From Paraburkholderia sp. (GTDB lineage: Bacteria; Pseudomonadota; Gammaproteobacteria; Burkholderiales; Burkholderiaceae), in the NCBI GenBank assembly GCA_004322045.1, contig SCRN01000043.1:186001-250000 (forward strand): a stretch of 64,000 nucleotides of DNA, in the 5' to 3' direction. A program made the position numbers and the translations under genes. Under the pieces are notes generated by a model. The model had not been told where the DNA came from. It did not search any database and was given only the letters and a program-made list of their open reading frames with translations. This document shows, in pieces, positions 14,627 through 18,479 of the stretch. Within the stretch, counting starts at the first letter, position 1; every line of letters starts with the position of its first letter.

Positions 14627-15013
14627 TTAGATGACTGCGGTCGCTTCGACTTCCACCTTGAAGCCGTAATGCAGCGCCCCTGTGGGGACGACCGCACGCG
14701 ATGGACGCGCAACGCCGATCCATTGTCCGTACACGTCGTTGAAGGCGGCCCAGTTAGCGACGTCGTCGACGTACACGCGCACCTGCACGAGCTTATCGAT
14801 GCCGCTGCCGGCAGCCAGCAGGGCGTGCTCGACGTTGGCCAGCACTTGCTTGGCCTGCGCCTCGAACGGTTGGTCAGCCAATTTTTGTCCCGAGGGCGTG
14901 ATCGGCAACTGGCCCGAGACGAAGACGAAGCCGTTCGCGACCGTCACATGACTGTAGTGGCCGCCGGGCGCCGGCAGCGAGGGGCTCGCCGGGTGCGTGA
15001 TGGGGGATGGCAT
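14627..15013 (-). CDS. RidA-family (YjgF/YER057c/UK114) protein
   Basis: A 128-residue protein, with GGAG 8 bases before the ATG at 15013. Motifs: 'GGHYSHVTVANGFVFVSGQLP', 'FEAQAKQVLANVEHALLAAGSGIDKLVQVRVYVDDVANWAAFNDVYGQW', and the signature 'RPSRAVVPTGALHYGFKVEVEATAV' whose Arg contacts substrate carboxylate. RidA members hydrolyse reactive enamines/imines from PLP enzymes; family relatives have other deaminase roles. The exact substrate cannot be read from sequence. Confidence 0.9.
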   Translation of the reverse strand: MPSPITHPASPSLPAPGGHYSHVTVANGFVFVSGQLPITPSGQKLADQPFEAQAKQVLANVEHALLAAGSGIDKLVQVRVYVDDVANWAAFNDVYGQWIGVARPSRAVVPTGALHYGFKVEVEATAVI

Positions 15014-15330
15014 GGATCGATCTCCGTAGATGAAGGATTGGCGCGGCCGTTGCGGCACAGCATTGCGACCGGTGACGTCGCGCTCCGTGATTTGAGCACA
15101 GGTCGCGGCATGGGGCGGATGCCGCACGCACGAGGGGGCTGCGTGACACGTCCGTAGCGCACGCGCTTCCTATCAAGCTTGACGGGTTCGTTGCGATCGC
15201 CCCTTTGCTAAATTCGCCTAATCGAGATAAACGTCGCCCGTGTAAGATTGCGTGGCGATGATTCACCGAATGTTGGCGCTCCCCGCCAACGTCCCGCAGG
15301 AGGTGTCCTGCATTCAATTAGGAGTCCGAA
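15014..15330 (+). other. Leader and promoter region of the peptide/radical-SAM operon
   Basis: No gene. A possible -35 TTGACG lies at 15179-15184 and several AT-rich -10 candidates follow (TAAATT 15209-15214, TAAGAT 15243-15248), but none pairs at ideal spacing, so the promoter is uncertain. The last 60 bases form two consecutive perfect hairpins (annotated next) and end in the ribosome-binding site AGGAG six bases before the peptide start. Confidence 0.45.
15272..15311 (+). promoter_or_regulatory. Two tandem RNA hairpins in the leader of the peptide gene
   Basis: GTTGGCG (15272-15278) pairs with CGCCAAC (15284-15290) over a 5-base loop; immediately after, GCAGGA (15296-15301) pairs with TCCTGC (15306-15311) over GGTG. 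Both stems are perfect and end 20 bases before the peptide ATG. The second stem contains an anti-Shine-Dalgarno-like AGGAGG in its 5' half and loop. This may be a structured leader that controls translation or attenuation. It does not match a riboswitch class I recognise. Confidence 0.5.
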
Positions 15331-15402
15331 ATGAACGATGTGTCGCATTACTTCGAGCCGCCCAAGGTGCAGCCCATGCCCGTGAAGATGGGTGTTTGGT
15401 AA
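15331..15402 (+). CDS. 23-residue peptide, candidate RiPP precursor or leader peptide
   Basis: A 24-codon ORF with an excellent ribosome-binding site (AGGAG, 6-base spacing). The peptide begins MNDVSHYFEPPKVQP and ends MPVKMGVW, so it is 23 residues long, the size of the PQQ precursor PqqA. It is Pro-rich with two aromatic clusters (His-Tyr-Phe near the N-terminus, a terminal Trp) and no Cys. It is followed by a hairpin and, 56 bases on, by a radical SAM enzyme gene. Strong translation signal, hairpin and enzyme neighbour together favour a ribosomally made, enzymatically modified peptide. A regulatory leader peptide is the main alternative. No similarity to a named precursor is recognised. 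Confidence 0.62.
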   Translation: MNDVSHYFEPPKVQPMPVKMGVW

Positions 15403-15422
15403 GCGGTTCGGCATAGAAGCGA

Positions 15423-15443
15423 GAAGGGGCCGCGCGCCCCTTC
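15423..15443 (+). other. Intercistronic hairpin between peptide and radical-SAM genes
   Basis: GAAGGGGC (15423-15430) pairs perfectly with GCCCCTTC (15436-15443) around CGCGC. No U-tract follows, so it is more likely a partial terminator or RNA-stabilising element than a full terminator. Such hairpins often let a short precursor be expressed above its downstream enzyme genes. The ribosome-binding site GGGAG of the next gene begins five bases after the stem. Confidence 0.6.
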
Positions 15444-15458
15444 GATTGGGAGAAACGC

Positions 15459-16877
15459 ATGCAGTTGCGCTCAGGCAGCACGCTCGTCAAATTCGATCGC
15501 CAGTTTCCGATCTACAACTTCTTCTTTCCGAACCAGGGCAAAGCGCGCGCGGCGGCGTCCGTGCCGCAAGTCTGGAACGAGGCGGCGCATCACGTGCGCT
15601 CGCGTGCGCTGTATTTCCATATTCCGTTTTGCGACACGATCTGCAACTTCTGTCCATTTACGCGGGGCCGCTATTCGAGCCGCGCCGTCATCGACGAATA
15701 CTTCGCGAGCTTGCTTGCCGAAATTCGTTTGAAAGCGGATCTGATCGACTTGAAGCGTGTGCCGGTTTCGGCAATCTTCTTCGGCGGCGGCACACCCAGC
15801 TTGCTGGACCCGGAGCAGATCGTCGAACTCGGCGAACTGATACGGCGCACGTTCGACTTGTCGGCACTGAGGGAATTTTCGTTCGAGGTCGAAGCCAAGA
15901 GTTTGACGAAGGAGCGTGCGCAGGCGATGCGCGCCATCGGCGTCACGCATCCGCGGTTCGGCCTGCAAAGCTTTTCTCCGAAATGGCGCGACATGTTCGA
16001 TCTGACCGCCACGCTCGATCAAATCCATGACGCGGCCGCGTTGTTGAAGCGGCTGTTTCCATATCAAACGTTCGACATCTTGTACGGCATGAGCGGTCAA
16101 GACGAAGAGGAGTTGATCGCCGATTTGGAAGCGGCCGTTGCGCTCGGAACCACGAACGTCGACATTTATCCGATCGATAACATCGTCACGCAAGTCGGCT
16201 TGCATGCGAAGTTGGACGCGTCCGGCGCCGTGCCCACTTCGGCCATGCGCAAGTTCGGCATGAACGTATTGATCGATCAAGCGATGCGGCATGCGGGGTT
16301 CATGCCGCATAACGGCCACGGTTACGTTCGCACGCCCGCCACGGGCGATGTCGTGAGCGACGCGTATTCGTTCGTCTATCACGAGCATGTGTACGGCTAT
16401 CACGATCACGACCTGATGGGCTTCGGCGTCAATGCGATCAGCTCGACGATGGGGCACGTCCTGACGCAAACCCACAGCAAGAAGATGTATCACGAGGCGA
16501 TCGCGCAAGGCCGGGTCCCCTGCGAAATCAGCCGGCATGAGCGGGCGCTCGATTTCGCCCGGCCGATCGTGCTGCGTTTGCCGTATCACGGCCGCCTCGA
16601 TAAGCGGCGCGTGCGATGGGATGCCGTGCATCCGGAAGTGCTCGAAAAGCTTGACCGTGTTCGGCAAGAAGGGTTCGTCGTCGAGGACGATACGTCCTTG
16701 GCGTTGACCAAGCTCGGCTGGTATTGGTACGTCAATCTCATGTACTACCTCATGCCGAATGCGGATCAATTGCTGATGAACGGCATGGTGATCGATAAGC
16801 TGAAAGACCCTGGCCGGCGGTTCTCCAAGCGGGAACTATTGTTTCCGCCCGTGCCCGCGCAAGTTGCCGAGGGATGA
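15459..16877 (+). CDS. HemN-like radical SAM enzyme
   Basis: A 472-residue protein, with GGGAG 6 bases before the ATG. The radical SAM cluster motif CxxxCxxC is at Cys58, Cys62 and Cys65 in 'YFHIPFCDTICNFCPFTRG', and the SAM-binding 'AIFFGGGTPSLLDPEQI' follows. 'EVEAKSLTKERAQAMRAIGV...RFGLQSFSPK' fits the coproporphyrinogen-dehydrogenase (HemN) branch, including its C-terminal domain. HemN-type enzymes bind two SAM molecules; branch members make heme precursors, but others methylate, cyclopropanate or degrade heme. Here the neighbours are a short peptide, an exporter and SAM decarboxylase, not heme genes, so heme synthesis is unlikely. Stop overlaps the next start (ATGA). Confidence 0.85.
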   Translation: MQLRSGSTLVKFDRQFPIYNFFFPNQGKARAAASVPQVWNEAAHHVRSRALYFHIPFCDTICNFCPFTRGRYSSRAVIDEYFASLLAEIRLKADLIDLKRVPVSAIFFGGGTPSLLDPEQIVELGELIRRTFDLSALREFSFEVEAKSLTKERAQAMRAIGVTHPRFGLQSFSPKWRDMFDLTATLDQIHDAAALLKRLFPYQTFDILYGMSGQDEEELIADLEAAVALGTTNVDIYPIDNIVTQVGLHAKLDASGAVPTSAMRKFGMNVLIDQAMRHAGFMPHNGHGYVRTPATGDVVSDAYSFVYHEHVYGYHDHDLMGFGVNAISSTMGHVLTQTHSKKMYHEAIAQGRVPCEISRHERALDFARPIVLRLPYHGRLDKRRVRWDAVHPEVLEKLDRVRQEGFVVEDDTSLALTKLGWYWYVNLMYYLMPNADQLLMNGMVIDKLKDPGRRFSKRELLFPPVPAQVAEG

Positions 16878-18103
16878 CGATGCTCGCGATGCTGCGCAAG
16901 GAACGCCGTCTGTCCATCCTGTTGACGGGCAATCTGCTGTCGCAAATCGGCGACGGTGTTCACGAATTCATCTTTATCGTCACCGTGCTGAACGTCACGC
17001 ATGCGAACGTGGCGCTTTCGGGCGCGGTCTACTTCTTTCGATTCATCCCGTACGTCGTGCTCGGCCCGCTGGGCGGCGCGCTATCGGATCGGTACTCGCG
17101 CCGTTCGTTGATGATCGCCGCCGATCTGGCGCGGATGATCATTACGGGCGCGTTTTGTTTTCTGTTGTCGAGCACGCAGATCGACGTGGCGGCGCTGGCG
17201 CTGATCGGCATGTCGATGACGGCGTTTCGCACGCTGTTTCAGCCCGCGTTCCAAGGCACCATTCCCGTGCTGGTGCGGGCCGAGCACTTGCCGGCAGCCA
17301 ACGGCGCGGCGCAAATGGTGGCTGAAATGGGCGGGCTCATCGGGCCCGCGCTCGGTGGCGGGCTGCTTTACGCCGTGGCGGACTCGGGCTACGTGCTGGC
17401 GATAGATGCCGCCACCTATTTGGTCTCGGCGCTTTGCGTTTGGCGAACGATCGCGCCATCGGGGCCGGCCGCACGCGGCGAACCGGTCGCGCGCTGCACG
17501 CTACGCGGCTTGTACGGCGAGTTCGCGACGAACTTCAAAGCATCGCTGGCCAAGCGCGAGCTGTTCGTCAGCATCGGGTACTCGGCGCTGTGCATTCTGT
17601 TCGTCGGTGCGGCCTTGCGTGTCCTCATCCCAACGATGCTCAAGAGCGAAGGCTACGCCGACAGTGTGATCGGCTTCGCAATGAGCGCCATTGCCCTCGG
17701 CGCGTTGAGCGGTGCACTTGTATGCAGCAGCGTCTCGCGCGATTTCAGCACGCCGAGCTTGATGACGTATTGGCGCTGCTACGGCTTCATGCTGGCGCTG
17801 CTGCCGTTGTGTGCAGTCAGTGTGCCGGCAACGTTCGCCGGATGCTTCGTGCTCGGCGCAATCGGTGCGTTCGTCGATGTGGTGCTGCCCACCAACATTC
17901 AGCGCTTATCCACCGACGCGAACGTCGGCAAGAACTTCAGCTTGTTCTCGACGCTGGCCAATACGAGCGAGGCGATGTCGGGCGCCTTCGCGGGTGCGCT
18001 CAGCGCCATTGCACCGGTCGCCGTCGGAATCTCGATCATCGGCGTGGCCGTGGTATCGGTGGGATACGCGGGCACTGCACGGGCGTCCAAACGTCATGAA
18101 TGA
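16874..18103 (+). CDS. MFS exporter
   Basis: A 409-residue major facilitator protein, starting inside the stop codon of the radical SAM gene (ATGA overlap). Twelve hydrophobic helices are apparent; the loop 2-3 signature appears as 'GGALSDRYSRRSLMIAADLARM'. The architecture is closest to the EntS / MFS_3 type exporters of siderophores and antibiotics ('GNLLSQIGDGVHEFIFIVTVLNVT', 'FRTLFQPAFQGTIPVLV'). Given the operon, it most likely exports the product of the pathway. Direction and substrate are inference. Confidence 0.87.
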   Translation: MTMLAMLRKERRLSILLTGNLLSQIGDGVHEFIFIVTVLNVTHANVALSGAVYFFRFIPYVVLGPLGGALSDRYSRRSLMIAADLARMIITGAFCFLLSSTQIDVAALALIGMSMTAFRTLFQPAFQGTIPVLVRAEHLPAANGAAQMVAEMGGLIGPALGGGLLYAVADSGYVLAIDAATYLVSALCVWRTIAPSGPAARGEPVARCTLRGLYGEFATNFKASLAKRELFVSIGYSALCILFVGAALRVLIPTMLKSEGYADSVIGFAMSAIALGALSGALVCSSVSRDFSTPSLMTYWRCYGFMLALLPLCAVSVPATFAGCFVLGAIGAFVDVVLPTNIQRLSTDANVGKNFSLFSTLANTSEAMSGAFAGALSAIAPVAVGISIIGVAVVSVGYAGTARASKRHE

Positions 18104-18479
18104 ATCGGAGCATCTGGCCTATGGCCGTCATGTGCTGGTCGATATTGCCCAAGCCGACCACGCGCTGCTCAACGATCGCGACGCACTCATGCGCGCGCTG
18201 ACCGACGCTGCCGTGGCCGAGGGTGCGACCGTGCTCGGCACGATCGAGCATGCGTTCGAACCGAACGGCGTCACGATCTTGCTGCTGCTCGCGGAGTCGC
18301 ACGTTTCGCTGCATACGTATCCTGACGAAGGACGCGCATTCTTCGATGCGTTCACCTGCGGCGTGCGCTGCGAGCCGGTGCGCATCTTTCGCCGGTTCGT
18401 CGCCGCGCATCCGGTGGGCACGTATCGAATGGTGCTTTGCGAGCGCGGCGAAGCCGGGCCGCGGGAGACGGCGCTGTGA
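18096..18479 (+). CDS. speD: S-adenosylmethionine decarboxylase proenzyme (class 1B SpeD type)
   Basis: A 127-residue protein starting 8 bases before the end of the MFS gene. The self-cleavage site Glu67-Ser68 lies in 'AESHVSLHTYPDEG', so Ser68 would become the pyruvoyl cofactor; the conserved His73 and Cys88 ('DAFTCG') are both present, and length matches class 1B enzymes. The enzyme should make decarboxylated SAM, the aminopropyl donor. No spermidine synthase gene is in the window, so the aminopropyl donor may serve the neighbouring pathway rather than ordinary polyamine synthesis. The last 45 residues are divergent. Confidence 0.85.
   Translation: MNESEHLAYGRHVLVDIAQADHALLNDRDALMRALTDAAVAEGATVLGTIEHAFEPNGVTILLLLAESHVSLHTYPDEGRAFFDAFTCGVRCEPVRIFRRFVAAHPVGTYRMVLCERGEAGPRETAL

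Follow-up and report, generated by a model that had tools for sequence, protein, structure and literature searches.

A putative RiPP pathway combining a tryptophan-bearing short peptide with a HemN-like radical SAM enzyme in Paraburkholderia and other bacteria

Organization of the operon

The window analyzed here, i.e., the whole stretch of 64,000 nucleotides from Paraburkholderia sp. (contig SCRN01000043.1, positions 186,001–250,000), contained a tight operon of four genes encoding a 23-residue peptide, a HemN-family radical S-adenosylmethionine (SAM) enzyme, a major facilitator superfamily (MFS) transporter and a SpeD-type decarboxylase (Table 1). Direct reading of the sequence confirmed the gene packing after the short open reading frame (ORF) that had been given in a preliminary description of the locus: an ATGA overlap joins the enzyme stop to the MFS start, and the SpeD gene overlaps the MFS gene by 8 bases. 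The same description had proposed a radical-modified peptide that is trimmed and exported. The operon resembles a pathway of peptide modification and export, the peptide is a conserved partner of the enzyme, and the enzyme belongs to the HemN family without being, by curated cut-offs, a heme enzyme. The peptide ORF, the operon and the conserved Trp-ended candidate precursor are solid at the sequence level, and a pathway for a ribosomally synthesized and post-translationally modified peptide (RiPP) is likely.

Table 1. Features of the operon in the window
Feature	Position	Strand	Basis
Shine-Dalgarno AGGAG of the peptide ORF	15320..15324	+	read from sequence; start ATG at 15331
Putative RiPP precursor, 23 aa, MNDVSHYFEPPKVQPMPVKMGVW, C-terminal Trp	15331..15402	+	ORF and conservation in relatives
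G+C-rich hairpin, peptide-enzyme spacer	15423..15443	+	predicted fold
HemN-like radical SAM enzyme, 472 aa, predicted HemN architecture	15459..16877	+	family models, structure comparison
MFS transporter, 409 aa, presumed exporter	16874..18103	+	family model (MFS_1, 7.9e-25)
SpeD-type pyruvoyl decarboxylase, 127 aa	18096..18479	+	family models

Conservation of the peptide next to the enzyme

The comparison comprised 46 enzyme loci: 38 from a scan of GTDB genomes, the window, four plasmid loci and three Bacillota loci, leaving out a Klebsiella record (L107) resembling L023, L128 from the genome of L042, L147 and a broken Pandoraea copy (L011/L101). Under one fixed rule, 23 of the 46 had a Shine-Dalgarno-preceded ATG ORF ending in Trp immediately before the gene that we assigned as the first of the operon. 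Applied to 301 other genes taken from 38 of these loci, the identical rule found such an ORF upstream of 2 (of 1 with a tighter limit on the ORF end). Since the loci are interrelated rather than independent (six Trinickia, 13 Bartonella/Brucella), the ratio between these two counts is not a probability. The search for peptide ORFs beside enzyme homologs, suggested in the preliminary description, thus found the peptide conserved as a partner of the enzyme. The other loci are sorted in Table 2.

Table 2. Candidate precursors at the 46 enzyme loci
Class	Loci	Members
Strict rule	23/46	
Short ORF, no ATG or weaker Shine-Dalgarno	3/46	L028, L035, L046
Carriers	6/46	L027; L029 (in-frame stop); L031; L032; L039 (frameshifted); L050
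Tandem gene after the enzyme	1/46	L030
Bacillota EWxxx	7/46	L042-L044, L106, L129-L131
Decayed, Arg end, frameshifted enzyme gene	1/46	L051
No candidate precursor	5/46	L023 (truncated by an insertion sequence, IS), L033, L038, L045, L048

A search of 299 genomes of the family at E 1e-30 gave relatives of the enzyme in 12, and the one in G120 (28 percent identity) was set aside as an ordinary HemN-type protein. The peptides found beside the enzyme were MNDVSHYFEPPKVQPMPVKMGVW, MDDVSRYFEAPDAARMPVKIGAW, MEEVSRYFEAPAVAPMPVKMGGW and MEDILVYFEAPATALLPVKMGGW, among others, with a pairwise pN/pS of 0.38, uncorrected, over eight peptides. A degenerate DNA pattern of the C-terminus of the Trinickia peptide occurred once each in 7 of the 299 family genomes, which are the seven same-genus genomes with the enzyme, and gave no match in the four of that genus without it; as the pattern was built from these very peptides, its informative part is the absence elsewhere. 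The Pandoraea copy (G125) was truncated and had no such peptide, and one family member (L012) had a precursor of the carrier form described below.

Precursor forms across bacteria

The broader scans yielded the 38 GTDB loci, six plasmid records and positive results in four of 397 genomes of a Bacillota order, and a class scan detected two of 369 genomes, namely that of the window and another in which the neighboring protein has the same end as in L039. Enzyme loci were found in Pseudomonadota, Bacillota, Chloroflexota, Acidobacteriota, Actinomycetota and Cyanobacteriota, some of them plasmid-borne. Nine loci on viral contigs had 24–34 percent identity, each spanning at most about half of the query, and no match was obtained in phages at 1e-25. 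What these loci newly reveal is that the conserved feature is a Trp, usually C-terminal, in precursors ranging from 7 codons to carriers of ~150 residues.

Trp-ended candidates were found in Aquitalea, Gallibacterium (MESAIDLFATELPTEHYDFNDVAW), Xenorhabdus pXT141 (MESAMELFEVDINDCDLQGLCMW), Glaesserella pD74 (MENAIELFVSRKNEEHYDFNNVAW), P. gingeri and a metagenome-assembled genome (MAG) of Rhodobacteraceae. Bartonella and Brucella tritici had genes of only seven codons (MFRENLW, MFRSNLW, MFRESLW, MFHENLW and MFREFSW), most with a strong Shine-Dalgarno sequence; in one Bartonella the start codon was replaced by ATT, and at the Bartonella locus L038 no seven-codon gene was seen. The Bacillota precursors included MKRNEWIAI, MRTEWLVV, MKKEWVALKNEWVAL and the tandem-repeat MKKQEWLVVKAEWLVV, the single-core peptides carrying three more residues after the Trp, and Alicyclobacillus had MRDIVWDIVW. 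In Ktedonosporobacter, a tandem-repeat precursor (MAPKLGTDSIWTPKLGTDSIW) and a second ORF with a TTG start, ending in GTVEGW, were both located between the enzyme and MFS genes, and no precursor was visible at its second enzyme copy (L033). Tandem cores were present at L030, L105, L106 and L130, and the core copy number differed between relatives (MRTEWLVV versus MKKQEWLVVKAEWLVV). The precursor genes of L105 and L106 were missing from the plasmid gene tables examined.

At six loci the short peptide was replaced by a carrier protein of about 100–150 residues with a Trp end, either of the TPR type (L027, and L029 from a MAG with an in-frame stop) or TIGR03067-like (L031, the frameshifted L039 and L050 by model matches just under the cut-off, L032 by eye). 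The carriers, the Bartonella and Ktedonosporobacter precursors and, apart from the decayed L051, the short peptides of the Pseudomonadota loci all had Trp as their last residue. Conservation was seen in an N-terminal part and at the C-terminal end.

The decayed copy at L051 (7520-7663) had a precursor-like ORF ending in Cys-Arg instead of Trp and a frameshifted enzyme gene, for which an assembly error is possible in this MAG. The cluster on a Klebsiella pneumoniae plasmid (L023 8001-13000, L107) consisted of enzyme, P450 and MFS genes. An ISL3 transposase gene lay within it, IS-like sequence had taken the place of the 5' end of the enzyme gene, and neither peptide nor SpeD was found there. None of the E. 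coli genomes carried the DNA of this cluster.

The HemN-like enzyme

The intact CxxxCxxC and GGGTPS motifs claimed in the preliminary description were read directly (CDTICNFC, GGGTPS), and the protein matched the radical SAM family PF04055 at 9.5e-19; its closest named relative, from Trinickia sp. Y13, was 96 percent identical. The best curated relatives were HutW (161.1 bits against a cut-off of 400) and HemN (109.8 bits against 324.95). Since both cut-offs were missed, assignment to the HemN family, apart from its heme enzymes, is supported. The predicted structure and the alignment contained the HemN fold and the SAM-II tyrosine, the structural match to HemN starting at model residue 10 and thus reaching the N-terminal region, and NocN was the second solved relative. 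The position of HemN Arg184, which we take to be SAM-binding, was occupied by Leu182 (Leu in 21 of 22 aligned rows, Met in one), from which no conclusion is drawn. In the enzyme tree, built from 35 of the 46 loci plus an outgroup (without L018, L026, L035, L037, L038, L041, L044, L046, L047, L049 and L051), 19 of the 36 rows formed a single clade (97/95).

SpeD and polyamine genes

The window SpeD matched AdoMet_dc (PF02675, 1.5e-25) and passed the cut-off of the NCBIfam adenosylmethionine decarboxylase model (90.8 against 75.65 bits). It was the only SpeD found in the window's genome. Its Ser68, His73 and Cys88 aligned with those of the T. maritima enzyme, where they presumably have catalytic roles, and were invariant in all 11 operon SpeDs aligned out of 18 local SpeDs seen. 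Ten operon SpeDs (L027 excepted) had the motif HTYP[DE]..TCG, as against HTWPE..MCG in the listed non-operon SpeDs of Burkholderiaceae. As described previously, no spermidine synthase was found near the window operon, but the argument built on this absence is weakened by an aminopropyltransferase elsewhere in the genome (see below).

Searched by tblastn in the 38 GTDB-scan loci and in L105, L106 and L129-L131, a local SpeD was present in 18 of the 46 loci, including 16 of the 19 rows of the single enzyme clade; no SpeD turned up near any of the 16 rows outside this clade (outgroup not counted), with L129-L131 covered for ~1.5 kb on each side. Three gene orders occurred (peptide-enzyme-MFS-SpeD, peptide-SpeD-enzyme-MFS and peptide-enzyme-SpeD-MFS), and SpeD and the enzyme were found together on an 11.6-kb plasmid. 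Among 15 genomes checked for SpeD and PF01564 content, the Gallibacterium isolate and two MAGs (which may be incomplete) had the operon SpeD as their sole SpeD and no PF01564 protein, so that spermidine is not a likely role for SpeD there. The loci of Salinarimonas and of an Azospirillaceae MAG lacked SpeD, and in these genomes a SpeD adjoined SpeE elsewhere. Genes for a SpeF-type ornithine decarboxylase were present at four loci (L025, L026, L048 and L104). In the SpeD tree the operon SpeDs were spread over more than one clade, with six changes implied, at least three of them forced by well-supported branches, and repeated recruitment or exchange of SpeD is therefore possible; rows L060, L062 and L088, labelled HK in this tree, are operon copies, and L055, L059, L064 and L069 were not picked up.

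A 132-aa ORF in Alicyclobacillus (L105), considered as a degenerate SpeD, remained unsupported (Pfam 0.08, hhalign probability 0.9 percent). One genome of the same genus from which the enzyme is absent (L100, G122:C1:811000-823000, reverse strand) had a SpeD with the motif HTYPE..FTCG beside ORFs of 232 and 243 aa; three W-ended ORFs present there were unlike the precursors and were rejected as such.

Proposed pathway and alternative explanations

The sequences themselves provide the conservation of the peptide and its Trp, the operon, the protein families, the predicted fold and the association of SpeD with one enzyme clade. On this basis we consider it probable that the operon makes a RiPP of undescribed type, whose mostly C-terminal Trp would be modified by a dual-SAM HemN-like enzyme, with decarboxylated SAM (dcSAM) feeding the proteobacterial branch. 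The 23-residue ORF would be the precursor: its N-terminal part (ILSYFE or AIELF in relatives) would serve for recognition, and a variable spacer would separate this part from the Trp-bearing C-terminal end. The HemN-like enzyme, which probably acts on Trp, would bind one SAM at its 4Fe-4S cluster and, next to this SAM, a further SAM-like molecule, and the MFS protein would export the product after trimming by peptidases encoded outside the operon. In the clade of the window locus, SpeD would provide dcSAM either as an aminopropyl donor or as the ligand of the second SAM site. Such a supply is plausible, with spermidine supply and a neofunctionalized SpeD as live rivals. A more specific version, a RiPP class with precursors down to seven codons in whose proteobacterial branch the second site binds dcSAM made by the clustered SpeD and the enzyme performs a radical transfer of an aminopropyl (or aminopropyl-thio-methylene) group to Trp, is unlikely; we know of no described enzyme with such chemistry. 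Kulikovsky et al. (2025, cited in PMC13381572) are reported to have described dcSAM as the aminopropyl donor for microcin C of B. subtilis, a precedent for its use in a RiPP.

Several observations weigh against this interpretation. No candidate precursor was present at five of the 46 loci, and the annotated coding sequence of pD74 that shares the stop of the candidate peptide begins 156 bases further upstream. Neither a protease nor a RiPP recognition element (RRE) was among the cluster genes typed, no search having been aimed at either. The Bacillota peptides run on for three residues beyond the Trp and the inner repeats of tandem cores are not C-terminal, so a single reaction at a free C-terminus misfits some precursors. 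Concerning SpeD, a SpeE-family aminopropyltransferase (L052, 289.7 bits, cut-off 260) is encoded elsewhere in the genome of the window, on a separate contig, which makes spermidine synthesis possible, and second SpeDs were found in G300 (P. gingeri), G305 (B. aenigmatica) and G312 (an Acidobacteria MAG). SpeD is not universal and one Bartonella genome tested had neither SpeD nor a PF01564 protein; hence dcSAM cannot be a general requirement of the core reaction between peptide and enzyme.

A specific form of the RiPP pathway, in which SpeD would serve a separate step, is an oxidative decarboxylation of the HemN type. A SAM-derived radical would take a hydrogen from the beta-carbon of Trp and, with the loss of CO2, leave a C-terminal indolyl-enamide. 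MftC decarboxylates a C-terminal Tyr. The indole-CH2-CH(NHR)-COOH of a C-terminal Trp resembles chemically the pyrrole-CH2-CH2-COOH side chain of the HemN substrate, and both the structural match to HemN in the N-terminal region and the terminal position of Trp in most precursor groups agree with this reaction. A precedent is the HemN mechanism, in which, according to a passage of PMC12871812, the methylene radical of the second SAM removes the pro-S beta-hydrogen and thereby promotes decarboxylation. However, the Bacillota peptides and the inner Trp of tandem cores would need prior trimming or another reaction, and SpeD is left without explanation. We regard this form as a tentative possibility.

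It is rather unlikely that SpeD serves only polyamine supply (spermidine, made with the SpeE encoded elsewhere) unrelated to the peptide, with the RiPP pathway reduced to peptide, enzyme and exporter. The aminopropyltransferase in the window's genome, the SpeF-type genes at four loci, as in polyamine metabolism, the SpeD-free Bartonella genome and the scattered operon SpeDs would all fit. On the other side are the close linkage of SpeD, kept in three gene orders and on the small plasmid with the enzyme, and, with the caveat of MAG incompleteness, the three genomes having the operon SpeD as the sole one and no PF01564 match.

Even less probable is a neofunctionalized SpeD acting as a pyruvoyl decarboxylase of ornithine, arginine or a Trp-derived product instead of SAM. 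The motif of the operon SpeDs and PMC10407285, according to which SpeD homologs without SpeE can be ornithine or arginine decarboxylases, favor it. Against it are the equivalog cut-off passed and the alignment of the three residues with the T. maritima enzyme; L025, L026 and L104 already have an ornithine decarboxylase gene beside SpeD, and in passages of PMC10407285 such neofunctionalized SpeDs lie in polyamine gene clusters.

Regulatory leader peptides acting through ribosome arrest or attenuation, such as TnaC and SpeFL, are encoded by tiny ORFs, and the window peptide alone, a single short ORF with a strong Shine-Dalgarno sequence upstream of the first gene, with a conserved terminal Trp codon and a stem-loop downstream, could be taken for one. 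Its relatives differ: tandem cores whose number varies between relatives, a changed gene order (in one genome, Ktedonosporobacter L030, the tandem precursor genes follow the enzyme gene and precede the MFS gene) and carriers with the same end favor a RiPP precursor over a leader, and the conserved N-terminal part and the variable first structural gene (SpeD or enzyme) also disagree with a leader, which was rejected as very improbable. An encoded precursor conserved beside its putative modifying enzyme, with core repeats and a conserved N-terminal part and C-terminal end, is what a RiPP system would have. A stem-loop was predicted in all 19 peptide-enzyme spacers folded (the window and 18 relatives), with differing sequences and in several cases followed by a T-run; having no shuffle control and fitting attenuation equally well, these stem-loops were counted neither for nor against a precursor. 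The window hairpin is possibly a partial terminator raising the peptide:enzyme ratio, although attenuation would fit too. Rfam gave no match, which says little, since it holds described families. Finally, the outcome considered in the preliminary description, a heme-synthesis or heme-degradation enzyme with an incidental peptide, is extremely unlikely and was rejected, since despite HutW and HemN being the best curated relatives and one plasmid annotation naming the gene hutW, the scores were far under the cut-offs, no heme-metabolism family was among the cluster genes typed and the peptide co-occurs.

Relation to known systems

HemN and the class C methylases NosN/NocN, TbtI and PbtM2/M3 differ from the operon enzyme, which scored under the HemN and HutW cut-offs and is linked to SpeD and MFS genes; its substrate would be the Trp of a short peptide, and no thiopeptide genes were among those typed. 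In PQQ and mycofactocin biosynthesis, a conserved aromatic residue of a small precursor is handled by a radical SAM enzyme. The enzyme here is of the HemN rather than the SPASM type and no separate RRE was recognized; the likeness to PqqA proposed previously is one of size only. The seven-codon precursor genes (here MFRENLW), plasmid-borne members and MFS exporter resemble the microcin C family, which differs in having a terminal Asn/Asp where the peptides here have Trp, and a radical SAM enzyme is present here instead; no MccB-type adenylating enzyme was among the cluster genes typed, no MccB model having been searched specifically. The aminopyruvatide pathway (ApyD, ApyO) is approached by Microseira (L050), where an ApyD-like B12 radical SAM protein is encoded beside the HemN-like gene, and by the P450 genes of some loci, but the ApyD match reached only 295.9 bits against a cut-off of 750 and the C-terminus here is Trp. 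Among the matches listed in open-access full text (PMC) there was no description of such a pathway; subscription papers fall outside this scope, and an earlier description is possible.

If correct, the proposed pathway would add a RiPP class recognized by enzyme context instead of precursor, including precursor genes of 7–15 codons, and would connect enzymes of polyamine metabolism, SpeD and in some cases SpeF, with the chemistry of peptides. Octapeptides of the MRTEWLVV type would be small synthesizable substrates for deciding between decarboxylation, methylene transfer and aminopropyl transfer by a HemN-type enzyme.

Neighboring and additional genes

In four Trinickia relatives (L014-L016 and L021) the operon was located between homologs of the window's chromosomal neighbors TMEM175 and UraA, with CheV homologs flanking it as well. 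A RidA-family gene (14627-15127, minus strand) is divergent from the window operon; it was rejected as a part of the system, a search of 38 related loci at E 1e-15 having given no RidA match. A P450-like gene was present at seven loci, with the heme-ligand cysteine region, judged by eye, kept in six and lost in the Klebsiella copy beside the IS. At L050 (5489-9401) and L039, a B12-binding radical SAM protein, typed as ApyD-like in L050 only, was encoded between the TIGR03067-like Trp-ended carrier and the HemN-like gene. The Bacillus and Cytobacillus clusters (L042 10614-11099, L106 8631-9113) had a DinB/bacillithiol-transferase-like gene after the MFS gene.

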